From positions 7,564,001 through 7,628,000 of the forward strand of contig NZ_CP106798.1 of the NCBI RefSeq assembly GCF_025642155.1: a DNA stretch of 64,000 bases. Reading direction: 5' to 3'. This DNA is from Streptomyces sp. HUAS 15-9 (GTDB taxonomy: Bacteria > Actinomycetota > Actinomycetes > Streptomycetales > Streptomycetaceae). This document shows, piece by piece, positions 3,917 to 20,290 of this stretch (position 1 is the stretch's first letter; each line of letters starts with the position of its first letter). Below the pieces are notes generated by a model, which ran no database searches, was not told where the DNA came from, and saw nothing but the letters and a program-made list of their open reading frames with translations. Made by a program: the position numbers and the translations under genes.

Positions 3917-4900
3917 CTAGTCGGACCGCGCGAACACCACCCACACCTGGCCCTTCGCGAAGTTCATGGGCGTGCCGTCGGCGGTGGTGAACTCCGTGCC
4001 GTCGGCCGCGGCCGTGCGGGTCCAGGTCGCGTCGAAGGCGCGCCCGTCCCGCAGCACCTCCGCCTTCCCCGTGCCCACTGTCTCGGTGTACGGCGTGTTG
4101 TTGCCGAGGACGTCGTGGTACGCGGACTCGCGCACCTTCACGTACTGCACGACGACCGTCGCGGGGGCCAGCCGCTTCCCGTCGGCCGTCTTCGTGGGCG
4201 TGCCGTCCATCCCGACCAGCCAGCGGTGCCGGTCGGCGGACCAGGTGAAGCTGAACTCGGCCACGGGATAGCGCACGGTGCGCGAGGTCTCGGCCCGCCC
4301 GCCCGCCGGTGCCGTGCCGTAGTGGAAGCCGGTGGTCAGCGCGGCCGCGCCCGGCGTGGCGGACAGCAACCGGTCCGGGTGCAGATAGAGGTTGTGCGGC
4401 GCCGCCTTGTCACCGCCGCGGAAGAAGGCGTCGGACGCGTTGCCGGGTGTCTCCGGTCGTAGCGGTGCCTTGTCGATCAGCGGCAGCAGCTTGGTCTGTG
4501 CCCCCGAGAAGGCGAGCGTCGGACGGTCGAACTGGCGCAGCAGCTCCAGATCGGACTCGCGGGCGCTGCGCACCGGCCCGATGACCTTCGGCAGCTTGGT
4601 CGCGTACACCGCCATCAGCCGGCTCAGCCCGCCCTCGACCTGCTCCGCGTACACGACGTCCGCGGAGTCCAGCCCCGTCTGCGGGCGGGCCGCGGGCACA
4701 TTGTCGATCTTCACGGCGAGCACGTGGCCGGTGCCGCCGCGCGGGGCCGGCCCGCTGGTCCGGCCGAGGCCGTCGTCGACCGGGCCGGGGCCGTGTCCCG
4801 ACGTACAGCCCGCCGCGAGAGAAACCGTCAACGCGACGCCCAGAAATGCTGTCGTCATCGCTCTCGTCGTGGCGCGTAGTGTGCGCGCTCTGTGCCCCAT
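3917..4900 (-). CDS. DUF3048 (YerB-like) lipoprotein
   Basis: The N terminus has a basic stretch (MGHRARTLRATTR), a hydrophobic core (FLGVALTVSL) and AAGC, a lipobox-like site, so the mature protein is probably a membrane-anchored lipoprotein facing outward. The rest matches the DUF3048 family (YerB of Bacillus): an early AVKIDN-type segment and a long conserved middle with RSARESD and GGDKAAPHNLYLHPD. The family has no established reaction. A GTG 24 bp further upstream (4924) is in frame; I prefer the ATG at 4900 because it gives a normal signal peptide length of about 30 residues before the Cys. The 3-prime end lies 68 bp upstream of the SDR start. Confidence 0.8.
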   Translation of the reverse strand: MGHRARTLRATTRAMTTAFLGVALTVSLAAGCTSGHGPGPVDDGLGRTSGPAPRGGTGHVLAVKIDNVPAARPQTGLDSADVVYAEQVEGGLSRLMAVYATKLPKVIGPVRSARESDLELLRQFDRPTLAFSGAQTKLLPLIDKAPLRPETPGNASDAFFRGGDKAAPHNLYLHPDRLLSATPGAAALTTGFHYGTAPAGGRAETSRTVRYPVAEFSFTWSADRHRWLVGMDGTPTKTADGKRLAPATVVVQYVKVRESAYHDVLGNNTPYTETVGTGKAEVLRDGRAFDATWTRTAAADGTEFTTADGTPMNFAKGQVWVVFARSD

Positions 4901-8403: not shown

Positions 8404-9192
8404 TCAGGCCTGCGGCTCGCTCTTGATCACCGCGAAGCGGGCGCCGTACGGGTCGGTGAGCTTGGCCATCCGGCCGACGCCCTCCATGCTCGTGGCGGGC
8501 ATGCGGACCTTGCCGCCCAGCTGCTGCGCCTTCTCGACCACGGCGTCGGTGTCCTCGACCTCGAAGTACGGCAGCCAATAGGCGCCGGCCTCGGCCTCCG
8601 CGGGGTCGTCGGCCAGCGGGACCATTCCGCCGAACATCGCGTCCTCACCGCCCTCGGTGGGATTGACGCAGGTGTACGTGCCGCCGGGGAAGGGCATGGC
8701 GGACGTCTCCAGACCGAGCACCTGGTGGTAGAACGCGGCGGCCGCGGCGATGTCCGGCGTGTACAGCTCGACCCAGCACAGCGAACCGGGTTCGTTCGCC
8801 TTGTCCACACCCTTGGTCAGGGCCGGCTGCCAGAGCCCGAAGGGCACGCCCGCCTGGTCGGCGAGGACCGCCATGTGGCCCTGCCCCATCACGTCCATGG
8901 GCTGGAGCAGCACGCTGCCGTGCGCCCCCTCGGCGGCCTTGGCCGTGGCCTGCGCGTCCGCGCTCTGGAAGTACACGGTCCAGGAGGGCGGACCCTGCTC
9001 CGGAGTGGTCTGCATACCGCCGGCCACGGTCTTGCCGTCCAGTTGGAAGAAGCCGTAACCGCCGGCATCGGGTCCCGCCGACTGGAACCGCCAGCCGAAG
9101 AGACCGCCGTAGAAGGAGGTGGCGCCCTCGATGTCGGATGTGCCGACGTCGAGCCAGTTGGGTGCGCCGTTGACGAAACGGGTGGTGAGCAT
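8404..9192 (-). CDS. Two-domain VOC (glyoxalase/bleomycin-resistance-like) protein
   Basis: A 262-residue protein made of two vicinal-oxygen-chelate domains. The first opens with PNWLDVGTSDIEGATSFYGG and the second, near residue 140, with WVELYTPDIAAAAAFYHQV; each ends in a PYG- or VPFG-type strand. This is the arrangement of the mycobacterial Cfp30B family (27 kDa antigen) found in many actinomycetes, often annotated as hydroxylase. No reaction is established. ATG 9190-9192 starts the conserved protein; upstream in-frame codons run into an intergenic stretch with no conservation expected. The region 9193-9477 between this gene and the WhiB-like gene must hold divergent promoters; I see no clear motif in it. 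Confidence 0.85.
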   Translation of the reverse strand: MLTTRFVNGAPNWLDVGTSDIEGATSFYGGLFGWRFQSAGPDAGGYGFFQLDGKTVAGGMQTTPEQGPPSWTVYFQSADAQATAKAAEGAHGSVLLQPMDVMGQGHMAVLADQAGVPFGLWQPALTKGVDKANEPGSLCWVELYTPDIAAAAAFYHQVLGLETSAMPFPGGTYTCVNPTEGGEDAMFGGMVPLADDPAEAEAGAYWLPYFEVEDTDAVVEKAQQLGGKVRMPATSMEGVGRMAKLTDPYGARFAVIKSEPQA

Positions 9193-9477
9193 CTTCGCCC
9201 TCCTCAAAAGGGTCCCGTTCTCAGTGCACTGCCGAGTCTTGCACCGCCCACTGACAATCGCTGCCGCAGCGCGTCCGCGCACCGGACCGCCCACCGCGAC
9301 TACCCTCGGTGACCAGCCGCGTTCCTCTTGATTTCCTCCCGGACCCGCGCGCCGCCGTGCGCCGCCGCGTGCCGGGGGAGCATCATCGGGGCGGCAGTCG
9401 GGCCTCGTATACGCCACGGCCGCGGCGTTGACCCGGCGTTGAGCGAACGTTTTTCGCGGGGCGGCACGATCCTGCTC

Positions 9478-9723
9478 ATGCACATCGAAACGATCACCTC
9501 GCCCGACCTCGCCTGGCAGGAGGAGGCGTTGTGCGCGCAAACGGGGGCGGACTTCTTCTTCCCGGAGCCCGGCAGCTCGGTACGGGAGGCGAAGCGGATC
9601 TGCGGCCTGTGCCCGATCCGCTCGGCCTGTCTGGCGTACGCGCTCGACAACGACGAGCGCTTCGGCGTCTGGGGCGGCCTGTCGGAGAAGGAACGGCTGG
9701 CGCTGAGGCGTACAGCGCTGTGA
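9478..9723 (+). CDS. wblH: WhiB-like (Wbl) iron-sulfur regulator
   Basis: An 81-residue Wbl protein. The four cluster-binding cysteines are C19, C42, C45 and C51 (CGLCPIRSAC), followed by the G(V/I)WGG turn at about residues 68-72 and a basic C-terminal tail (KERLALRR). Such proteins bind a 4Fe-4S cluster and usually work with the principal sigma factor. ATG 9478 is the natural start. The symbol wblH rests on position only: I recall that S. coelicolor wblH lies near ligC and ssgD homologues, so treat it as tentative. The gene ends 32 bp before the promoter box of the first tRNA gene. Confidence 0.85.
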   Translation: MHIETITSPDLAWQEEALCAQTGADFFFPEPGSSVREAKRICGLCPIRSACLAYALDNDERFGVWGGLSEKERLALRRTAL

Positions 9724-9754: not shown

Positions 9755-9772
9755 GTTAGGATCCGGGAACGC
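9755..9772 (+). promoter_or_regulatory. Promoter box for tRNA genes 1-2
   Basis: GTTAGGATCCGGGAACGC contains TAGGAT (9757-9762), a good -10 hexamer, ending 12 bp before the first tRNA base. The same 18-mer with one change recurs at 10000-10017 before the third tRNA gene. No convincing -35 hexamer is seen. Confidence 0.6.
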
Positions 9773-9774
9773 GT

Positions 9775-9846
9775 CCGGGCGTAGCGCAGAGGCAGGCGCA
9801 CCGCCTTGCTCAGGCGGCCACACCGGTTCGAATCCGGTCGTCCGGA
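9775..9846 (+). tRNA. tRNA-like gene 1, anticodon GCU (Ser-type), no long variable arm
   Basis: A 72-nt cloverleaf. Acceptor CCGGGCG (9775-9781) pairs with CGTCCGG (9839-9845) with one G-U; U8 A9; D-stem GCGC/GCGC around AGAGGCAG; anticodon stem CCGCC/GGCGG; loop TTGCTCA giving anticodon GCU at 9808-9810; four-base variable loop; T-arm ACCGG/CCGGT with loop TTCGAAT; A73. No CCA is encoded. GCU would read AGC (serine), but true tRNA-Ser has a long variable arm that seryl-tRNA synthetase needs and this has none; C37 is also odd. Tertiary positions U8, A14, G15, G18, G19, C56 and A58 are kept, so the fold looks functional. It lies only 7 nt before gene 2, so the two are probably co-transcribed. 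Confidence 0.8.
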
Positions 9847-9853
9847 CGTGCGG

Positions 9854-9925
9854 GGGTCGGTAGCGCAGAGGCAGGCGCACCTTCATGGCATGAAGGACAC
9901 GCCGGTTCGAATCCGGCCCGGCCCG
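9854..9925 (+). tRNA. tRNA-like gene 2, anticodon GGC (Ala-type)
   Basis: A 72-nt cloverleaf. Acceptor GGGTCGG (9854-9860) pairs with CCGGCCC (9918-9924) with one U-G at 4:69; D-arm GCGC-AGAGGCAG-GCGC is identical to gene 1; anticodon stem CCTTC/GAAGG; loop ATGGCAT with anticodon GGC at 9887-9889; variable loop ACAC; T-arm GCCGG/CCGGC with TTCGAAT; G73. The anticodon reads GCC (alanine), but the G3-U70 pair that alanyl-tRNA synthetase recognises is absent (here G3-C70) and the discriminator is G rather than A. Its scaffold differs from the usual Streptomyces tRNA-Ala as I remember it and matches the other three tRNA genes here instead. Confidence 0.85.
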
Positions 9926-9965
9926 CGACAGGCCCGTACGGGGCGGGGTGGCACACCCGGGCGGT

Positions 9966-9981
9966 CCGCACATCCGTGCGG
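9966..9981. terminator. Small hairpin after tRNA genes 1-2
   Basis: CCGCAC (9966-9971) and GTGCGG (9976-9981) form a 6-bp stem with loop ATCC, between the end of tRNA 2 and the promoter box of tRNA 3. It may end the two-tRNA transcript; the stem is short, so this is weak. Confidence 0.4.
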
Positions 9982-9999
9982 CCACGGCCGCCGTGTGCG

Positions 10000-10017
10000 G
10001 TTAGGATCCGGGAGCGC
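10000..10017 (+). promoter_or_regulatory. Repeated promoter box before tRNA 3
   Basis: GTTAGGATCCGGGAGCGC copies the box at 9755-9772 with a single A-to-G change; TAGGAT (10002-10007) is the likely -10. Transcription from here would enter tRNA 3 and, with no room for another obvious promoter, the zinc-ribbon/SDR gene 28 bp further on. Confidence 0.6.
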
Positions 10018-10039
10018 ACCCGGACGGGACGCGTTACTC

Positions 10040-10111
10040 GGTCCTGTAGAGCAGAGGCAGACTCGCCACCCTCTCAAGGTGGATACGCCGGTTCGAATCC
10101 GGCCGGGACCA
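10040..10111 (+). tRNA. tRNA-like gene 3, anticodon CUC (Glu-type)
   Basis: A 72-nt cloverleaf. Acceptor GGTCCTG (10040-10046) pairs with CGGGACC (10104-10110); D-arm GAGC-AGAGGCAG-ACTC has three good pairs; anticodon stem CCACC/GGTGG; loop CTCTCAA with anticodon CUC at 10073-10075; variable loop ATAC; T-arm GCCGG/CCGGC with TTCGAAT; A73. The anticodon reads GAG (glutamate). The D-loop and T-arm are the same as in the other tRNA genes of this locus. It ends 28 bp before the start codon of the zinc-ribbon/SDR gene, so it probably has to be cut out of a longer transcript. Confidence 0.85.
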
Positions 10112-10139
10112 CGGCACGGCGGACACGGGGCGGGTACGG

Positions 10140-11504
10140 ATGGGCGAGGCGATCACCGACGCGGTTGCCGGCACGACCACGGACACGGTCACCGAGGCGG
10201 AACTGGCCGCCTTCCACCAGGTGGTGGGCAAGCTGCGCGCGCTGCCCGTCGACGATCCGGTGCGACTGCGGGCCGAGCAGGTCGCCGCCTCCTTCACGCG
10301 CGACGGCCGACTGCGGCGGCGTAAGGCGCGCGGCGCCGAAGCGTCCGCGGCCGACGCGGCGGCGATGGCGGCGACCGCGACCGGCGCCCCGGACCGCCGT
10401 GAGGACGCCCCGTTGGCCGAGTCCGGCGCCGGGGGAGTCTTCCTCCGGCCGCGCACCTGCTACGTCTGCAAGTCGCCCTATCGACAGGTCGACACCTTCT
10501 ACCACCGGCTCTGCTCCGAGTGCGCCGCCGACAACACCGCCCGCCGCACCCTGAGCACCGACCTGAGCGGCCGCCGGGCGCTGCTCACCGGAGGCAGGGT
10601 AAAGATCGGTTTCCAACTCGCCCTGATGATGCTCCGGGACGGCGCCGAGGTCCTCGTCACCTCGCGCTTCCCGCACGACACCGTGCGCCGCTTCCGGGAG
10701 GCCGAGGGCAGCGCACAATGGCTGGACAGACTGACCGTCCTCGCCGTCGACCTGCGCGACCCGCGCCAGGTGCTCGGGCTGTGCGAGGAACTGCGGCGGG
10801 AGGGCCGGCCGCTGGACATCCTCGTCAACAACGCCGCGCAGACCGTGCGGCGGCCGCCCGAGTCGTATGCGCTGCTGTCCGCCGGGGAGTACGACGCGCT
10901 GCCCGCGGGGGCCCGGCAGGCGCCCGGGTTCCGGCCGATGCGGATGCTGGAGGGCCCGGCCGCCGCCCTGCCCCTCGCCCTGCGCGAGGCCGACGAGGCC
11001 GGGCTGCTGCCCGACCCGTCCCCGGAGAACTCCTGGTCGGCCCGGCTCGGCGCGCTCGACCCGGCCGAGGTCCTGGAGACCCAGCTCGTCAACGCCCTTG
11101 CCCCGGCGCTGCTGTGCGACCGGCTGCTGCCCCTGCTGCTGACCGCGCCCCGGCCACGCCGGTACGTGGTCAATGTGACCGCCGTCGAGGGCCGCTTCGC
11201 CGTCCGCAACAAGATGCCGGGCCATCCCCACACCAACATGGCCAAGGCGGCCCTGAACATGCTCACCCGCACCAGCGCCGCGGAACTCGCCGCCCAGGGT
11301 GTGCACATGTGCGCCGTCGACACCGGCTGGATCACCGACGAGAACCCGGCCCCGAAGAAGGCCCGGATGGCCGAGGCCGGGTTCCGCACACCGCTCGACA
11401 TCGTGGACGGGGCGGCCCGGGTGTACGACCCGATCGTGCGGGGCGAGGCCGGGAACCCGGTGTCGGGGGTGTTCCTGAAGGACTACCGGGAGGCGGCATG
11501 GTGA
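10140..11504 (+). CDS. Zinc-ribbon/SDR-fold protein with degenerate active site
   Basis: A 454-residue protein. Residues about 106-128 carry two CxxC-type pairs (CYVCKS and CSECA), a likely zinc ribbon. From about residue 145 it has a short-chain-dehydrogenase fold: the nucleotide motif reads TGGRVKIG, where the usual middle Gly of TGxxxGxG is Lys, then LVNNAAQ. Near residue 368 the conserved K sits in HTNMAKAALN, with Thr where SDRs have the catalytic Tyr. The fold and NNA motif are clear, but ordinary SDR catalysis is doubtful. A family with this zinc ribbon and PHTNMAK motif is, from memory, found in bacteria, fungi and plants without a known reaction. Its 3-prime end overlaps the leucine-rich-repeat gene by 7 bp, so translation is coupled, and tRNA 3 sits in its leader. 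Confidence 0.8.
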   Translation: MGEAITDAVAGTTTDTVTEAELAAFHQVVGKLRALPVDDPVRLRAEQVAASFTRDGRLRRRKARGAEASAADAAAMAATATGAPDRREDAPLAESGAGGVFLRPRTCYVCKSPYRQVDTFYHRLCSECAADNTARRTLSTDLSGRRALLTGGRVKIGFQLALMMLRDGAEVLVTSRFPHDTVRRFREAEGSAQWLDRLTVLAVDLRDPRQVLGLCEELRREGRPLDILVNNAAQTVRRPPESYALLSAGEYDALPAGARQAPGFRPMRMLEGPAAALPLALREADEAGLLPDPSPENSWSARLGALDPAEVLETQLVNALAPALLCDRLLPLLLTAPRPRRYVVNVTAVEGRFAVRNKMPGHPHTNMAKAALNMLTRTSAAELAAQGVHMCAVDTGWITDENPAPKKARMAEAGFRTPLDIVDGAARVYDPIVRGEAGNPVSGVFLKDYREAAW

Positions 11505-12691
11505 GCGAGGAGCCCGAGGAGGCGCACCCGGGCGGCGTCGCCGGGGTGCCGTACGTCGTGCCGCGCCCCCTCGCCGAACTGGAGCCCCTGCTGGACTGGT
11601 TGCGCGCGGGCCGCCCGGCCGGGGAGCGGCTGGACTTCACGGCCGGTACGGCGCTGCCCGACGGGCGGCTCGACCTGTGCAAGCAGGGGGTCGGGGCGGA
11701 GGGTGCCGCGCTGATCGCCGACGCGCTCGCCCAAGGACCGTCTCCGGTACGGCACCTGCTGCTCGGCACCGACGCGCTGGGCGACGACGGGGCGGCCGCC
11801 GTCGCCGAGAGCACGGGGGACGTCGAGACGCTGTATCTCGGCTGCAACGGGATCACCGCGGGCGGTGCCTGCCGGATCGCCGACAATCTGCGGGCCTCGC
11901 CGCAGGTCGTCACCGGTGTGTGGCTGAAGAGGAACCCGCTCGGCAGCGGGGGCGGGCAGGCCGCGGCCGAACTCATCGAGTCCGCACGGTCGTTGCGCAC
12001 CCTCGACCTCGTCCAGACCGGCCTGGACGCGCCGGGCGCCGCCGTCCTGGCCGACGCACTGCTGGCGGCCGCCGGGGGCGGGCGGCGGATCGAGCGGCTC
12101 TTCGTCAGCGGCAACCCGCTGGGCGAGGCGGGCGCGCGGGCGCTCGCCGCCGTCGTCGCCTCAGGCGCGGTCGATGAACTGTACGTGTCCGCGGCCCGCT
12201 TGGGAGACACGGGCGCACTCCGTCTGGCCGAGGCCCTGGAGCGGGCACCGTACGGGCGGCTCACCCGGCTGGCCGTCGCCAGCAACGGCATCGGACCGTC
12301 CGCCGCGGCCCGCCTGGTGACGGCGGCGACCGCGGCCGGCGTCACGCTGCTGGACCTCGGCCGGGTCCGGGCGGCGGCGGTGCTCGCGGCGCAGGACAAC
12401 CGGCTCGACCTGACGTCCGCCGAGACCATCGCCGCGGCCCTCGCCGACGGCGAGCACCGGCTCGCCCACCTCGTCCTGACCCACACCGGGCTGCGCAGCC
12501 GCGAGGCCCACCGCCTCCTCGACCACGCGGCCCACGCCACGACAGCCACCCGCTTCCGGCTCGGCGACGGCATCGCCGCCAGCGTCAAACGCCGTCTGGA
12601 CGCCCTGAGCGCACACATCCCCGCACCGGCCGTCCCGGCGGACGTGGCGGCCATCCGCAGCGTGCACCGCACGGCGCCACCGGAGGCGTGA
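11498..12691 (+). CDS. Leucine-rich-repeat (ribonuclease-inhibitor-like) protein
   Basis: A 397-residue cytoplasmic protein with no signal peptide. It consists of about ten LRR units of the RNI type, with recurring patterns such as GAAAVAE..VETLYLGCNGI, RSLRTLDLVQTGL, RRIERLFVSGNPL and GRLTRLAVASNGI. Such horseshoe proteins bind other proteins; some eukaryotic members bind ribonucleases, and bacterial relatives are often named gala proteins. Start ATG 11498 overlaps the upstream SDR-like gene (stop at 11502-11504). It converges on the MoxR-type ATPase gene with 39 bp between stops. A role as a protein-binding partner within this locus is inference. Confidence 0.85.
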   Translation: MVSEEPEEAHPGGVAGVPYVVPRPLAELEPLLDWLRAGRPAGERLDFTAGTALPDGRLDLCKQGVGAEGAALIADALAQGPSPVRHLLLGTDALGDDGAAAVAESTGDVETLYLGCNGITAGGACRIADNLRASPQVVTGVWLKRNPLGSGGGQAAAELIESARSLRTLDLVQTGLDAPGAAVLADALLAAAGGGRRIERLFVSGNPLGEAGARALAAVVASGAVDELYVSAARLGDTGALRLAEALERAPYGRLTRLAVASNGIGPSAAARLVTAATAAGVTLLDLGRVRAAAVLAAQDNRLDLTSAETIAAALADGEHRLAHLVLTHTGLRSREAHRLLDHAAHATTATRFRLGDGIAASVKRRLDALSAHIPAPAVPADVAAIRSVHRTAPPEA

Positions 12692-12730
12692 GCCGGGGCG
12701 GGGCCCGGTGGCCCGGACCCACGAGCCGCC

Positions 12731-14569
12731 TCAGCTCCGCCGCATTCCGGTGAGCACCTCCGTCCAGAAGCGCTGTTGCTGCTGCGACGCTCCCACGAGA
12801 TACGTCGCCCGCAGCTTGGGCGGCAGCAGCGCCACCAGCCGGGCCACCACCGCCCGGTGCTTCTTCAGCTGGGACAGCTCCGCGTTGGCGAGGATCTGGT
12901 GGACCACGTCGCTGTCGTTCTCGCCCTCGTCCGAGCGGTCGGCCGCTCGGCGCAGGCGCTTCTCCCACAGGTCGGCGTCCCGGGCGAGCTCGCGCAGGCC
13001 CGTGACCGGGCGTCCGCGCAGCCGGTCCATCAGGGCAGTGAGCGGCACGGGCGCGTACTCGCCGTCGCCGAGGTAGACGGTGCCCATCTCCAGCGGCAGC
13101 CCCCGCCGGTGCAGCTTGATGAGGCGCTCCAGGGTGCGCTTGGTGATCCAGGCGCGCCCGTCGTCGTCGATGTCGTGCTTCCACCACTCAAGGACCGTCT
13201 CGGCGTCCGTGCCGTACTGCGCAAGGAGCCACTCGTTGGCCGGTATGTCCTCCGGCTCGACGGTGAGCGAGGCCGTGAAACGGGTCGCCTGGGCGATGTT
13301 GTTCCGGGACACCAGGAGCTTGCGGCCCAGATGGTAGGGCGGATTCTGGACCGCTATCTGCGCCCGCAGTTTCTCGATCCGCTGCCCCGCCAGCGACCAC
13401 TCCTGGGTGACCTCCATGAGCTTGGCGAACGCGGCCTTGTCCTTGGGCCTGTTGTACTCGTCCCACACGATCGCCTTCGGCTCGGGGCCGGTGAAGGGCA
13501 TGGCGAGGAGGTTGTCCAGCGTGCCGTCCGGGGACGGGATCGGCGCGCACAGATCCTCCACGTTCGTCACGGGCAGGGAGAAGTACAGCGGATCCCGGCC
13601 GAGCCCTTCGCGCAGGGTCTCGCGCACCAGCTCCGTCTTGCCGCAGCCGGGCGGGCCCTGCAGCAGGACCGTCCACCGGTTGCGCAGGGCGGCACGTACC
13701 ACCTGCCGTACCGGGTCGGGGACGGTGGCCGGGTTGCGGGTGCCGAGCGCCTCGGCGATCCGGTCGAGGATCTCCGACGTGCGGTTCTGACCCGGGCGGC
13801 CGTCCGGGCCCGGCTCGGCCAGCCGCACCCGCTCGCCGTCGACCAGGGGCAGGCCCCAGCGCAGCGGGAAGCCCTCCCCGGCGTTGGCCAGGACATGGTC
13901 CAGGGTGCGCGGGGAGAGCAGCTCACGCAGCTCCGGGCAGAGCGAGGCCCACAGGGAGAACACCGGACGCAGGTCCCACTGGCGGTACTTGGCCGCCAGA
14001 TGGCGCCGCCAGGACGTGTCGTTCGCGGTGATCCGGATCGTCACCATGCGGTCGAGCAGCGCCAGGTCGCCGCGCCGTGCCGACGTCTCGGCCAGCGACT
14101 CGTTGTCCGTCAGGAACACGCCGACGCAGCCCAGGGCGCGCAGATCGTGCTCGCCGAGCGTCCAGTTGCAGGCGATCTGCATCAGCTGCGACTGGATCGT
14201 GTCGCCCGCCTGCAGCGAGTCGTCGATGAGCAGCACGAAGGGCCTGCCCGGCTTGAGCTGGCTCATCACCAGCTGACGCAGGACCAGTTCACCGGTCCGC
14301 GGGTCGCGCACCGGCGCGTTGACGAGCAGGTCGTCGGGTGTCAGGTTCGCCGCGGGGACGTACACCAGCGTGGCGTCCGGGTGGGAGCGGGCGATGTGGC
14401 AGAAGAACGTCGCCGTCTTGCCGATGCCGTGCTCGCCGAAGACCTGCCCGGTCTGCCCCATGTCGATCATCGCGTCGATGAAGGCCTCGAGGCGTGAGTC
14501 GGCCGACTGCCGTGGGTCCGTGCGGTCTGCGTGGTCTGTGTGGTCCGTGTGCTGTGCTTCCGTGGTCAT
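12731..14569 (-). CDS. MoxR-type AAA ATPase with two AAA modules
   Basis: A 612-residue protein with two ATPase modules. The first Walker A is GEHGIGKT at residues 45-52; the second, GPPGCGKT, is near residue 305 and is followed by a Walker B-like IVWDEYNRPKD. The second module resembles MoxR/dynein-like AAA proteins, which typically pair with a vWA partner to remodel or load cofactors into target complexes. Here the vWA gene ends with TAG directly abutting this ATG, so the two are translated from one message. The N terminus is rich in His/Asp/Thr (short HTD-type repeats). Target and trigger are unknown. Confidence 0.85.
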   Translation of the reverse strand: MTTEAQHTDHTDHADRTDPRQSADSRLEAFIDAMIDMGQTGQVFGEHGIGKTATFFCHIARSHPDATLVYVPAANLTPDDLLVNAPVRDPRTGELVLRQLVMSQLKPGRPFVLLIDDSLQAGDTIQSQLMQIACNWTLGEHDLRALGCVGVFLTDNESLAETSARRGDLALLDRMVTIRITANDTSWRRHLAAKYRQWDLRPVFSLWASLCPELRELLSPRTLDHVLANAGEGFPLRWGLPLVDGERVRLAEPGPDGRPGQNRTSEILDRIAEALGTRNPATVPDPVRQVVRAALRNRWTVLLQGPPGCGKTELVRETLREGLGRDPLYFSLPVTNVEDLCAPIPSPDGTLDNLLAMPFTGPEPKAIVWDEYNRPKDKAAFAKLMEVTQEWSLAGQRIEKLRAQIAVQNPPYHLGRKLLVSRNNIAQATRFTASLTVEPEDIPANEWLLAQYGTDAETVLEWWKHDIDDDGRAWITKRTLERLIKLHRRGLPLEMGTVYLGDGEYAPVPLTALMDRLRGRPVTGLRELARDADLWEKRLRRAADRSDEGENDSDVVHQILANAELSQLKKHRAVVARLVALLPPKLRATYLVGASQQQQRFWTEVLTGMRRS

Positions 14570-15976
14570 CTACCGTGATCCTGTGGTGACGCGATGGCAG
14601 TCCATCGCCGGTGTGTGCGTCTCGGGCCAGTCGCTGCCGCCCTGGGTGATCAGCCAGATCCATTTGTCCGGCTCGGCCGGAGTGATCGGCGGGGCGTATC
14701 CGTCGGTGAGCATCACGACGGCGTCCGGGGTCACGTCGAACCGGCGCCCGTTCACCTCCGTGCGGCCCTCCACGTGGTCCGCGACCGCCTGGAAGCTCGT
14801 GCCACCGCCGCCGTAGACCCGCTCGCCCGGTCTGAACGGCATCACCACGGCGTCGAAGGACAGCCAGTGCGCCTCCACCCCGTCGATCCGGCCGACGAGT
14901 TCGGTGAGCCACCTGATGACGTGGTCCGGCATCGAGCCCGAGGTGTCGTACGCGATGACCAGCACCTTGTCCCGCACCGGGCCCCGTCGCGAGAGCATCG
15001 GGTCCTGGCCCAGGTCCGCGAGCAGCGCGCCCCGCTTCTTCGGGTACACCAGCCGCTCGCCGTCACGCAGTTTCGAGCCGAGTACGTCGACCAGCCAGCG
15101 CTGCCACCAGTCGACCGTACGCGTGCGCGTGGTCTCGCCGCGGAGCATGCCCGCGCCCAGGTTTCCCCAGATCCGGGCGGCCCGCGCCGAGCCCTCCTCG
15201 GTGCGGCCCATCAGGTCGAGCAGCTCGCGCTCCGCGCCCGGGTGCCCGCGTCGGGCCGCCAGCAGGGAGTTGAGCAGCGCGGAGGACGTCACCGCGTCGA
15301 CGGTCTCCTGATCGGCCGGGACGAGATTGCCCTCCAGGTGCACGCACAACCGTCGCTCCGGGACGGGAGGATGGCGCATGCGCTTCAGTTCGCCGTACAC
15401 CCGCATGTCCGTCCGGGTAAACGTCTCGTACGCCACCGGCTCCAGGCCGTGCGTCGTCAGGTCCTCCCAGTAGGCGTCGTACACCGTGCGCGGGTCGACG
15501 CCCGTGGGCCGGCCGTCGAGCAGCGGCAGTTCCGCACGGCCCAGCCGGACCAGCGCCACATGGTTGATGGACACCTCGGCGGCCAGCTCGAACACCGGGT
15601 CGTCGCGCAGCTCGGCGTCCGCGAACAGATGGCGGTGCACCAGATGCCGCGCCTCGTGGAACAGCACGAACTTCACGCCGTCCAGGCCCAGTGCGACGAA
15701 GCAGTCCGGGTTGTAGAGCAGCAGGCAGGAGCCGTCGCCGGAGGCGACCACGGCCGCCGTGTCCACCGCCGTCGTCGGGATCTGGTGGTGGCACTTCGTG
15801 TACAGCCAGGACGCCACCGCCGACTCGGTCAGCCCGAAGTCCAGCAGCGCGGCCTCCTTCAGCCGCCGCGCCTCCTCGACCACCGCCGGATCCGCCGGGC
15901 GGTAGCGCTCCAGTGCCCGGCGGTCGGTGAGGTCGACCACATGAGGGCGCCGTCGCCCCTGCTCCCCGTACGCCAT
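14570..15976 (-). CDS. DUF2201-like protein: metallopeptidase-like domain plus vWA domain
   Basis: A 468-residue protein from ATG 15976 (an in-frame upstream start at 16045 would run toward the tRNA 4 promoter). The N-terminal half has FHEARHLVHRH with HExxH at residues 107-111, as in the metallopeptidase-like domain of the DUF2201 family. The C-terminal third is a vWA-like domain with the metal-binding DTSGS near residue 343 and a later MLTDGYAPP strand. MoxR-vWA pairs are known chaperone-like machines; the peptidase activity is not proven. The gene is first in an operon with the tandem-AAA ATPase (stop and start abut) and is divergent from tRNA 4 with about 100 bp between them. Confidence 0.85.
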   Translation of the reverse strand: MAYGEQGRRRPHVVDLTDRRALERYRPADPAVVEEARRLKEAALLDFGLTESAVASWLYTKCHHQIPTTAVDTAAVVASGDGSCLLLYNPDCFVALGLDGVKFVLFHEARHLVHRHLFADAELRDDPVFELAAEVSINHVALVRLGRAELPLLDGRPTGVDPRTVYDAYWEDLTTHGLEPVAYETFTRTDMRVYGELKRMRHPPVPERRLCVHLEGNLVPADQETVDAVTSSALLNSLLAARRGHPGAERELLDLMGRTEEGSARAARIWGNLGAGMLRGETTRTRTVDWWQRWLVDVLGSKLRDGERLVYPKKRGALLADLGQDPMLSRRGPVRDKVLVIAYDTSGSMPDHVIRWLTELVGRIDGVEAHWLSFDAVVMPFRPGERVYGGGGTSFQAVADHVEGRTEVNGRRFDVTPDAVVMLTDGYAPPITPAEPDKWIWLITQGGSDWPETHTPAMDCHRVTTGSR

Positions 15977-16058
15977 GCGAAGCCCCCCGTGCACCCTGTA
16001 ACGCGCTTCCCCCGGTGCTTCATTGGTACCAGCCCGCACTGACAACGGGCCAAGGCAT

Positions 16059-16064
16059 TACGCT
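16059..16064 (+). promoter_or_regulatory. Probable -10 of tRNA 4
   Basis: TACGCT ends 12 bp before the first base of tRNA 4, the same spacing as TAGGAT before tRNA 1. CTGACA at 16039-16044 is a partial -35, but at 14 bp the spacer is short. Confidence 0.4.
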
Positions 16065-16076
16065 GTGCGGCAAGGG

Positions 16077-16151
16077 CGGGGCCGTAGCGCAGAGGCAGGC
16101 GCACCTGGTCTCCAAAACCGGAAGACGCCGGTTCGAATCCGGCCGCCCCGT
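16077..16151 (+). tRNA. tRNA-like gene 4, anticodon CCA (Trp-type), irregular acceptor
   Basis: A 75-nt cloverleaf-like RNA. CGGGGC (16077-16082) pairs with GCCCCG (16145-16150); an extra C at 16083 is bulged before G84-C144. Then U8 A9 and the same GCGC-AGAGGCAG-GCGC D-arm as tRNAs 1 and 2, an extra base at 16104, anticodon stem CTGGT/ACCGG, loop CTCCAAA with anticodon CCA at 16112-16114, five-base variable loop, T-arm GCCGG/CCGGC with TTCGAAT and T73. The anticodon reads UGG (tryptophan), but bacterial tRNA-Trp has G73. It is the least regular of the four and could be degenerate or specialised. Confidence 0.75.
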
Positions 16152-16161
16152 CCCCCTGGAT

Positions 16162-19315: not shown

Positions 19316-20290
19316 TCAGGCCCCGGCGCGCGCCGCCACCCGCGCCTTCCGGGCGGCCAGCTTCTCGTCGAACTTCGAGGCCTCCGCGTCGAGACCGCCC
19401 ATGAACAGGCCGAGTTCGTCCTGTGCCTGCTTCCCCTCCGGGCCGAGCCCGTCGATCTCCATGATCTTCAGGAAGCGCAGCACGGGCTGGAGGACGTCGT
19501 CGTGGTGGATACGGAGGTTGTAGACCTCGCCGATCGCCATCTGGGCCGCGGCGCGCTCGAAGCCGGGGATGCCGTGGCCGGGCATGCGGAAGTTCACGAC
19601 GACGTCCCGCACGGCCTGCATGGTCAGGTCGGGGGTGAGTTCGAAGGCGGCCTTCAGCAGGTTGCGGTAGAAGACCATGTGGAGGTTCTCGTCGGTCGCG
19701 ATGCGGGCCAGCATGCGGTCGCAGACCGGGTCGCCGGACTGGTGGCCGGTGTTGCGGTGCGAGATGCGGGTCGCGAGCTCCTGGAAGGCGACGTAGGCGA
19801 TCGAGTGCAGCATCGAGTGACGGTTGTCGGACTCGAAGCCCTCGCTCATGTGGGACATGCGGAACTGCTCCAGCTTGTCCGGGTCCACCGCGCGCGAGGT
19901 GAGCAGGTAGTCGCGCATCACGATGCCGTGCCGGCCCTCCTCGGCCGTCCAGCGGTGCACCCAGGTGCCCCAGGCGCCGTCCCGGCCGAACAGCGAGGCG
20001 ATCTCGTGGTGGTAGCTGGGGAGGTTGTCCTCCGTCAGAAGGTTGACCACGAGGGCGGTGCGGCCGATCTCGGTGACCTTGGACTGCTCCTTGTCCCAGG
20101 CCTCGCCGTCCTCGAACTGGCCGGGGAAGTTACGGCCGTCGGTCCACGGGACGTACTCGTGGGGCATCCAGTCCTTGGCGACCTTCAGATGGCGGTTCAG
20201 CTCCTTCTCGACCACTTCCTCGAGCGCGTACAGCAGCTTCGCGTCGGTCCACACGGACGGGCTGCCGAGGGGAGGAGAGGTGATCGTCAC
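19316..20290 (-). CDS. desA: Acyl-[acyl-carrier-protein] desaturase (soluble di-iron)
   Basis: A 324-residue member of the plant-type soluble stearoyl-ACP desaturase family. Iron ligands are visible as the early E in LTEDNLPSYHHEI, then W(T)AEEGRHG (EExxH) near residue 117 and DENLHMVFY (DExxH-type) near residue 205. It uses a di-iron centre, oxygen and reduced ferredoxin to place a double bond in an ACP-bound fatty acid, adjusting membrane fluidity. GTG 20288-20290 follows a TGGAG ribosome binding site. Its promoter region carries three 15-bp operator-like repeats (20360-20404), so repression by a TetR-type lipid regulator is likely but not proven. Confidence 0.9.
   Translation of the reverse strand: MTITSPPLGSPSVWTDAKLLYALEEVVEKELNRHLKVAKDWMPHEYVPWTDGRNFPGQFEDGEAWDKEQSKVTEIGRTALVVNLLTEDNLPSYHHEIASLFGRDGAWGTWVHRWTAEEGRHGIVMRDYLLTSRAVDPDKLEQFRMSHMSEGFESDNRHSMLHSIAYVAFQELATRISHRNTGHQSGDPVCDRMLARIATDENLHMVFYRNLLKAAFELTPDLTMQAVRDVVVNFRMPGHGIPGFERAAAQMAIGEVYNLRIHHDDVLQPVLRFLKIMEIDGLGPEGKQAQDELGLFMGGLDAEASKFDEKLAARKARVAARAGA

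Follow-up and report, generated by a model that had tools for sequence, protein, structure and literature searches.

Background

Loci of the Ro60/Y RNA and RtcR/RtcB types have a gene for a vWA-type or AAA protein near a tRNA-like RNA. Here we describe a cassette found in Streptomyces sp. HUAS 15-9, within a stretch of 64,000 nucleotides (nt), positions 7,564,001 to 7,628,000 of contig NZ_CP106798.1, which was analysed as a whole and is called the window below. The cassette comprises four tRNA-like RNAs that share one body and carry four different anticodons, and genes for a protein with a Zn ribbon and an SDR fold (hereafter the SDR), a leucine-rich-repeat (LRR) protein, a MoxR-like protein and a metallopeptidase-vWA protein. 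It differs from the Ro60/Y RNA and RtcR/RtcB loci in that scans with Pfam, PADLOC and NCBIfam recognised no TROVE/Ro60, RtcB or RNA ligase domain in the four proteins.

Chen et al. (2022, PMC9262613) have described tRNA-Asp-AUC from Streptomyces SPC6, whose stated features fit a sister family of these RNAs. According to the available portions of that paper, it is constitutively expressed, it increased antibiotic production, it accounted for 48,557 small-RNA reads in the strain of origin, it reached the level of native tRNA-Asp in S. coelicolor, and it restored translation of a GAU-rich eGFP reporter. It was found in 32 of 4649 streptomycete genomes, and an ancestral integrative element was suggested. 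Those portions present it as one solitary decoding tRNA and describe neither other anticodons, nor a CCA companion, nor an SDR-linked family.

Two other systems are comparable in part. Phage tRNAs that evade anticodon nucleases have changed anticodon loops, for which van den Berg et al. (2023, PMC10264068) give an arms race with tRNA-cutting enzymes as the explanation. The cassette RNAs resemble them in the change of the anticodon loop; however, the phage tRNAs are phage-borne and are proposed to work in translation, whereas the cassette RNAs lie in the chromosome and go with fixed proteins, and most of them lack an acceptor identity that matches the anticodon. The MoxR-vWA ternary conflict systems (Kaur et al. 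2020, PMC7159879) likewise have adjacent MoxR AAA+ and vWA genes, but their VMAP, iSTAND and FtsH partners are not recognised in the cassette by Pfam and PADLOC scans of the four proteins, which did not use dedicated models. The main text of that paper, in the form available, contains neither DUF2201 nor SDR, and the word tRNA occurs in it once, in a reference.

Four tRNA-like RNAs in the window

According to ARAGORN, the whole window contains four tRNA-like genes and no more, all on the forward strand, and Rfam supports each of them with a score above the tRNA gathering score of 29 bits. The first three are tRNA-like 1 (9775..9847; anticodon GCU at 9808-9810; 53.1 bits; fold z -2.3), tRNA-like 2 (9854..9926; GGC at 9887-9889; 53.4 bits; z -3.0) and tRNA-like 3 (10040..10112; CUC at 10073-10075; 57.6 bits; z -2.1). 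The fourth, tRNA-like 4 (16077..16151), has the anticodon CCA at 16112-16114 and a C1:G72 pair; its Rfam match covers 16078-16150 with 44.6 bits (z -1.8), and the ARAGORN bounds are 16076-16154. RNAfold gives a complete cloverleaf for tRNA-like 1 and 2, a fold without the D-arm for tRNA-like 3, and one without the anticodon arm for tRNA-like 4.

All four RNAs have GCAGAGGCAG and CCGGTTCGAATCCGG, in the D- and T-arm, respectively. Across the whole 9.6-Mb genome, a pattern made from these two arms gives four forward matches, all in the window, and no reverse match; the reversed-pattern control also gives none. ARAGORN, Rfam and the genome-wide pattern thus agree with the preliminary description, which had reported four tRNA-like genes with one scaffold and four anticodons at these positions. 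Its shared D-arm also stands, but its loop boundary does not: the loop is better read as AGAGGCA with a closing C-G pair, which is kept in 75 of 76 distinct sequences, and one variable bulged base.

The genome contains 75 Rfam tRNA matches in total. Native tRNAs with the window anticodons are located elsewhere and have other arms (two copies of Ser-GCU, two of Ala-GGC, three of Glu-CUC and one of Trp-CCA). Among the window RNAs, tRNA-like 1 has the loop UUGCUCA with C37 and lacks a long variable arm, tRNA-like 2, as read from the sequence, has an acceptor without G3:U70, and tRNA-like 3 matches native tRNA-Asp in the 5' strand of the acceptor and in the anticodon stem.

Linkage to the SDR

The strict RNA pattern occurs in 11 of 150 genomes of the genus and a looser one in 73 of 295, with no match for the reversed-pattern control. 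These genomes were split by eye into a window type (29 genomes) and a sister type (45), the D-arms of the latter being mostly GCAGAGGT-like; one genome has both. The SDR is found in 47 of the 295 genomes and in all 29 that have window-type RNAs (hypergeometric P 4e-28, in a calculation that ignores shared ancestry), and in only four of the 45 sister-type genomes. The preliminary description had named homologous RNAs without these genes as an outcome that would refute the association; no genome has window-type RNAs without the SDR (0/29), and the association of RNAs and proteins is not due to chance.

For a closer view, the best 80 of 170 places with the SDR gene were taken as SDR loci; they are mostly from Streptomyces, with some from Kitasatospora, Actinacidiphila and Allokutzneria, and 11 of the 80 are cut by contig ends. 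RNAs, either upstream non-CCA RNAs or CCA RNAs, are present in 69 loci: one to four non-CCA RNAs lie at most 1 kb upstream of the SDR gene in 64, and a CCA RNA is present in 55. The arrangement is strongly ordered. Every one of the 124 upstream RNAs and of the 55 CCA RNAs shares the strand of the SDR gene, the upstream ones at a median of 37 nt from the matched region, and 54 of the 55 CCA RNAs are downstream of the SDR gene, where they make up all 54 same-strand RNAs and no other anticodon was found on that strand. A CCA RNA is found upstream in L176 and L096. The smallest arrangements are RNA-SDR-CCA RNA (L106) and SDR-CCA RNA (L138 and L143).

The other proteins of the cassette are less regular. 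The LRR gene is present in 43, MoxR in 41 and vWA in 39 of the 69 RNA loci, and none of them in the 11 loci without RNA, although this restriction is not fully independent, because the RNA-free loci have more distant SDRs (mean identity 75%, vs 84% in RNA loci). The LRR and MoxR-vWA genes are optional and the Zn-ribbon SDR is the constant partner; MoxR-vWA, on which the preliminary description had put emphasis, is not the core of the system. Six of the 10 genomes with the vWA gene, among 150, have neither the SDR nor the RNA pattern (one of the six is only 82% complete).

In the window and in seven of 10 other RNA loci compared, the cassette occupies one common chromosomal site, flanked by WhiB/VOC/LacI-type genes on one side and desaturase/DDAH-type genes on the other; these names were read from open reading frames (ORFs), except for WhiB, which was assigned by Pfam. 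One genome (G530) has a window-type RNA about 9 kb from its SDR gene. At L115, just before 8876, an apparent tRNA-like 3' half precedes an intact one, a sign of RNA gain and loss.

Structure, anticodons and charging identity

One 72-nt frame fits 90 of 181 RNAs, 76 of which are distinct. Stems are paired in 66 to 76 of the 76 distinct RNAs, with many compensatory changes, and the Levitt pair G15-C48 is present in 74. G18 and G19 are present in every row of two slots (42 and 34 rows), for which the row filter itself required the T-loop TTC.

In one slot, represented by 42 loci, the minimum number of changes is highest at position 34 (12), followed by position 38 and the discriminator (9 each) and position 32 (8), whereas 46 of the 72 positions are unchanged, 11 of them imposed by the row filter, which fixed positions 8, 10-16 and 53-55. 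The fastest-changing positions are exactly those that are normally frozen in tRNA genes. On the SDR tree, these 42 loci require at least 15 anticodon changes, compared with an average of 18.0 in 60 shuffles, the lowest of which gave 14, and a set of 52 loci requires 27, compared with 29.5 (lowest, 26). The non-CCA anticodons fall mostly into two patterns, NNC or GCN, which cover 123 of the 126. Phage tRNA-Thr genes in L264 and L270 look ordinary yet share the D-arm GCGCAGAGGCAGGCGC, so the D-arm alone does not define the family.

The bases that confer aminoacylation identity are generally known; identity was judged here by the native tRNAs of the host, and acceptor stems were fitted automatically. 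Acceptor identity is mostly mismatched for the Trp, Ala, Ser, Gly and Cys types, and agrees in about half of the Asp type and two thirds of the Glu type. In particular, the CCA type has C73 with C1:G72 in 46 of 55 cases (the native tRNA has G73), G3:U70 occurs in none of 19 GGC-type RNAs, U73 in one of 23 GCC-type and none of six GCA-type RNAs, and none of the 15 GCU RNAs, which measure 72-77 nt, has a long arm.

Working tRNAs generally have a purine at position 37, where a pyrimidine would be foreign. Among 124 non-CCA RNAs, 29 have C37 and one has U37; C37 is found in 13 of 15 GCU and six of six GCA RNAs. At the same time, the anticodon arms resemble the native arm with the same anticodon: on average 9.15 of 14 positions agree, vs 7.48, a difference reached in none of 5000 shuffles (80 distinct arms, compared with the native tRNAs of the window's genome only). 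Without CCA, the values are 8.58 and 7.97 (60 arms; five of 5000 shuffles). The likeness is strongest for CCA, CUC and GUC.

The sister family

We examined 20 regions with sister-type RNAs. Six RNAs with the loop GCAUCGA or GCAUCAA all stand directly before LRR, ankyrin, MoxR and metallopeptidase/vWA genes, whose domains were assigned by Pfam at one locus and by protein clusters at the others. ARAGORN reads the anticodon as AUC in three of the six and as UCG, shifted by one base, in the other three; by our reading, C33 is followed by AUC in all six. A gene of the ankyrin cluster also follows an RNA of AGC type and one of GCA type, whereas no neighbour gene is shared by the seven CCA-type and five other RNAs. 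The CCA and non-CCA sister RNAs are found in the same genome 19 times vs 3.5 expected (31 and 33 of 295 genomes). A solitary CCA-type RNA occurs in two copies, at L190 and L192, because the two ends of one chromosome contig are mirror images.

The sister LRR is about 41-42% identical to the window LRR. Similarity of the sister MoxR and vWA proteins to the window pair is barely detectable by BLASTP (best E 0.12 and 0.004), and both vWA proteins match DUF2201. Judging from these sequences, MoxR-vWA pairs may have joined such RNAs twice, or they may have diverged very far.

It is this sister family that resembles the published tRNA-Asp-AUC. As far as the available text of PMC9262613 shows, the two have in common the anticodon AUC, a purine at position 32, C33, and, 3' of the RNA, genes for an LRR protein, a second protein, MoxR and a fourth protein; some members (e.g., L182) also have an anticodon stem of three G:C pairs and two mismatches. 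The match was made by the published description, not by sequence, and the window locus is not AUC. The preliminary description had suggested that the system could be undescribed. Those portions of the paper do not describe the SDR-linked family, but a sister RNA is already published there as a decoding tRNA.

Range of the system

In the class sample, the RNA pattern occurs in 23 of 296 genomes, 11 of the genus and 12 outside it. Eight of these 12 have only ordinary tRNA-Leu(UAA) matches of 45-46 nt, and four are real members from one family. Three other genera of one family (L214, L215 and L216) have RNAs before the SDR and LRR genes, the SDRs being 47-53% identical. A second SDR group (45-53% identical) has no adjoining RNA in 14 loci (L217-L230). 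An SDR of either group is found in 72 of the 296 genomes.

A further RNA locus is on a plasmid of Deinococcus sp. KNUC1210, which encodes an SDR homologue (52% identical). Its SDR gene is preceded by a UGC tRNA-like RNA (52.4 bits, E 3.5e-10) and by two hairpins, one with the loop CUGCUAA, as in Ser-GCU, and one with the loop CUCCAAC, as in Trp-CCA; the three elements lie at 4590-4626, 4672-4745 and 4747-4782 of L272. Both hairpins fold better than all of their 200 shuffles (z -4.3 and -4.7). The only other composite hairpin in the 11-kb locus is the mirror image of the first, and among 3000 shuffles of the locus eight had one composite hairpin and none had two. The hairpins repeat the anticodon classes of Streptomyces without a chargeable body, and no other single hint points as strongly to the anticodon arm as the part that matters. 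L272 may also contain another tRNA-like 3' half, near 4510-4588. Relatives of the Deinococcus SDR among the best 120 listed are named from Deinococcus, Hymenobacter, Gemmata, Roseiflexaceae and cyanobacteria.

Bare anticodon hairpins in other loci were rejected, because such hairpins arise by chance in GC-rich loci, mostly inside genes, so that only the Deinococcus hairpins count. Within 350 nt upstream of 32 RNA-free SDR loci, an anticodon-like hairpin was absent in 30 and weak in two. Phage origin was rejected since none of 50,697 phage records matches the SDR at E 1e-20, and plasmid spread since only four distant plasmid matches of the SDR were found. Among viral contigs, the pattern occurs in 15 stretches, mostly in ordinary phage tRNAs, and none of the stretches examined has cassette proteins. 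One SDR homologue, on a Tsukamurella plasmid (L271, 4719-6185), has a Phd/VapC toxin-antitoxin pair (8430-9118) a few genes downstream; no tRNA was found there.

Cassette proteins and candidate control elements

The protein calls made in the preliminary description are correct for all four genes. The SDR (10140..11504, forward strand) has a ribbon-like N-terminal part with four cysteines, and its stop is overlapped by the start of the LRR_6 protein (11498..12691, forward; both by Pfam). The MoxR-like protein (12731..14569, reverse; Pfam AAA_5) has two P-loops, read from the ORF as GEHGIGKT and GPPGCGKT, and the DUF2201 metallopeptidase-vWA protein (14570..15976, reverse; Pfam) has the motifs HEARH and DTSGS, also read from the ORF. 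The latter two genes are side by side at 12731-15976. A weak RtcR match (E 0.006) among the four proteins covers the AAA part only.

The classical SDR catalytic tetrad includes Ser and Tyr. In an alignment of 125 SDR sequences, in which some genomes are represented more than once, the invariant features include the four ribbon cysteines, Lys369 and the motifs TG-R-KIG and NNA, whereas neither the catalytic Ser nor the Tyr is present in any sequence: Ala348 and Thr365 occupy their positions in all 125, and the adjoining HPHTNM is invariant. With those motifs kept and these two residues replaced, the protein is likely to bind NAD(P) but to lack the usual SDR chemistry. The window's own genome has a second SDR homologue, 49% identical (G000:C1:7762487-7763233).

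A -10-like box TAGGAT at 9757..9762 on the forward strand, 12 nt 5' of tRNA-like 1, and a second one at 10002..10007, 5' of tRNA-like 3, are putative promoter elements. A TA[AGC][GAC]ATC box is found within 45 nt of the first tRNA-like RNA in 53 of 64 loci, vs about 0.002 expected per interval of that size. The palindrome TTGGTACCA at 16023..16031, between the vWA gene and tRNA-like 4, is a candidate operator. It recurs at this place in 29 of 55 CCA loci, which are its only 29 matches in their 1.27 Mb, and is perhaps an operator for both the vWA gene and the RNA.

Interpretation

A single body with swapped anticodons beside the same proteins suggests RNA decoys or baits and not only ordinary parts of the translation machinery. 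Our preferred reading, which we put forward tentatively, is that the RNAs are tRNA mimics that act as decoys or inhibitors of enzymes attacking anticodon loops; we rank it first, ahead of decoding tRNAs, then a guard system and lastly drifting copies. The cassette would produce a small set of mimics with near-native anticodon arms on one fixed body, and quick exchange of anticodons would follow the attackers. The body would be conserved because a partner protein, most likely the Zn-ribbon SDR, holds it, and the LRR protein, MoxR and the metallopeptidase-vWA protein may be added sensing and effector parts. The preliminary description had proposed a decoy, sensing or RNA-repair system; decoy or sensing fits the data best in our view, while RNA repair and a Ro60-type function are not supported, as no TROVE, RtcB or ligase domain was recognised in the four proteins.

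If the RNAs are decoys, whole tRNA mimics serve bacteria as a changing armoury against tRNA-cutting toxins or phage, and the anticodons would amount to a list of the attackers. A search of the open-access literature, which leaves most subscription papers and bioRxiv outside its scope, found no such decoy family. The broader proposal is somewhat more doubtful, namely that these RNAs form a new bacterial class of regulatory RNA: tRNA mimics with hypervariable anticodons that counter anticodon-loop enzymes as antitoxins or decoys, are held by a Zn-ribbon SDR with altered catalysis, are coupled in some lineages to LRR and MoxR-metallopeptidase-vWA proteins, and have a stripped-down hairpin form in Deinococcus.

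Several observations weigh against the decoy reading. Window-type RNAs are missing from 18 of 47 SDR genomes, and 11 of the 80 SDR loci have no RNAs. The cloverleaf, G15-C48 and U33, the last in 112 of 124 non-CCA RNAs, constitute a canonical tRNA core; the discriminator is as Asp and Glu expect in 12 of 23 GUC (G73) and 16 of 24 CUC RNAs (A73); and only 63 of 174 loops are identical to the native loop. No nuclease was recognised in the four cassette proteins by the Pfam, PADLOC and NCBIfam scans. Deinococcus contributes one locus only, as no tRNA was found near the SDR at three other plasmid SDRs or seven phylum-sample loci, and its UGC tRNA-like RNA folds no better than shuffles (z -0.8, 42/200). 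The rescue of the GAU-rich reporter by the published sister RNA, whose expression is that of a normal tRNA, belongs here as well.

That rescue also speaks for the main rival, which we consider unlikely: that the RNAs are working elongator tRNAs that add decoding capacity, a role put forward for tRNA-Asp-AUC, and are carried with a mobile or contingency gene cluster. The published AUC member is expressed and boosts antibiotics in addition to rescuing eGFP (PMC9262613, available portions), and the canonical core, the promoter-like boxes of the RNAs themselves and the partial agreement of the discriminator in GUC and CUC RNAs point in the same direction. However, the reporter test, as described in those portions and as we read it, leaves the inserted amino acid unshown. 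Native tRNAs already cover all four window anticodons, three of them with more than one copy, and the identity elements are mostly wrong for the Ala, Ser, Gly, Cys and Trp types. C37 in 29 of 124 RNAs, the near-random turnover of anticodons and the bare Deinococcus hairpins, which presumably cannot be charged, also argue against it. If the RNAs do decode, anticodon swapping on mismatched acceptors would be a natural source of mistranslation. In either case, genome annotation that counts them as ordinary tRNAs for Ser, Ala, Glu, Asp or Trp is misleading, and the antibiotic-boosting tRNA-Asp-AUC is placed in a new context.

A guard system is distinctly unlikely. Here, a complex of the SDR and the LRR protein would hold the RNAs as baits, and cutting of a bait would release a MoxR-metallopeptidase-vWA effector. 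MoxR-vWA pairs have been proposed to deploy effectors in conflict systems (PMC7159879, in the part available), two very distant pairs are linked to such RNAs, and the window protein has HEXXH and DxSxS motifs. On the other hand, the RNAs are kept in 28 of 69 RNA loci that show no MoxR, some of them cut by contig ends, and MoxR-vWA also exists without RNAs.

Finally, it is improbable that the RNAs are surplus tRNA copies under weak constraint, or that they act as processing signals within the SDR/LRR mRNA leader, with an anticodon that has no role: the almost free drift of the anticodon on the SDR tree, the short distance before the SDR gene on the same strand and the SDR loci without RNA would fit, but not the restriction of downstream RNAs to CCA and of the others to NNC or GCN, the native-arm likeness, the separate promoter-like boxes, or the co-occurrence of solitary CCA and other sister RNAs.

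Neighbouring genes

A WhiB-family regulator (9472..9723, forward strand; Pfam) adjoins the cassette, and its membership is uncertain: WhiB is upstream in 58 of the 69 RNA loci and in seven of the 11 loci without RNA. Farther downstream, Rfam reports an ASdes match at 19872-19939 of the window (forward strand, 65.9 bits), with a desaturase-like ORF on the opposite strand.

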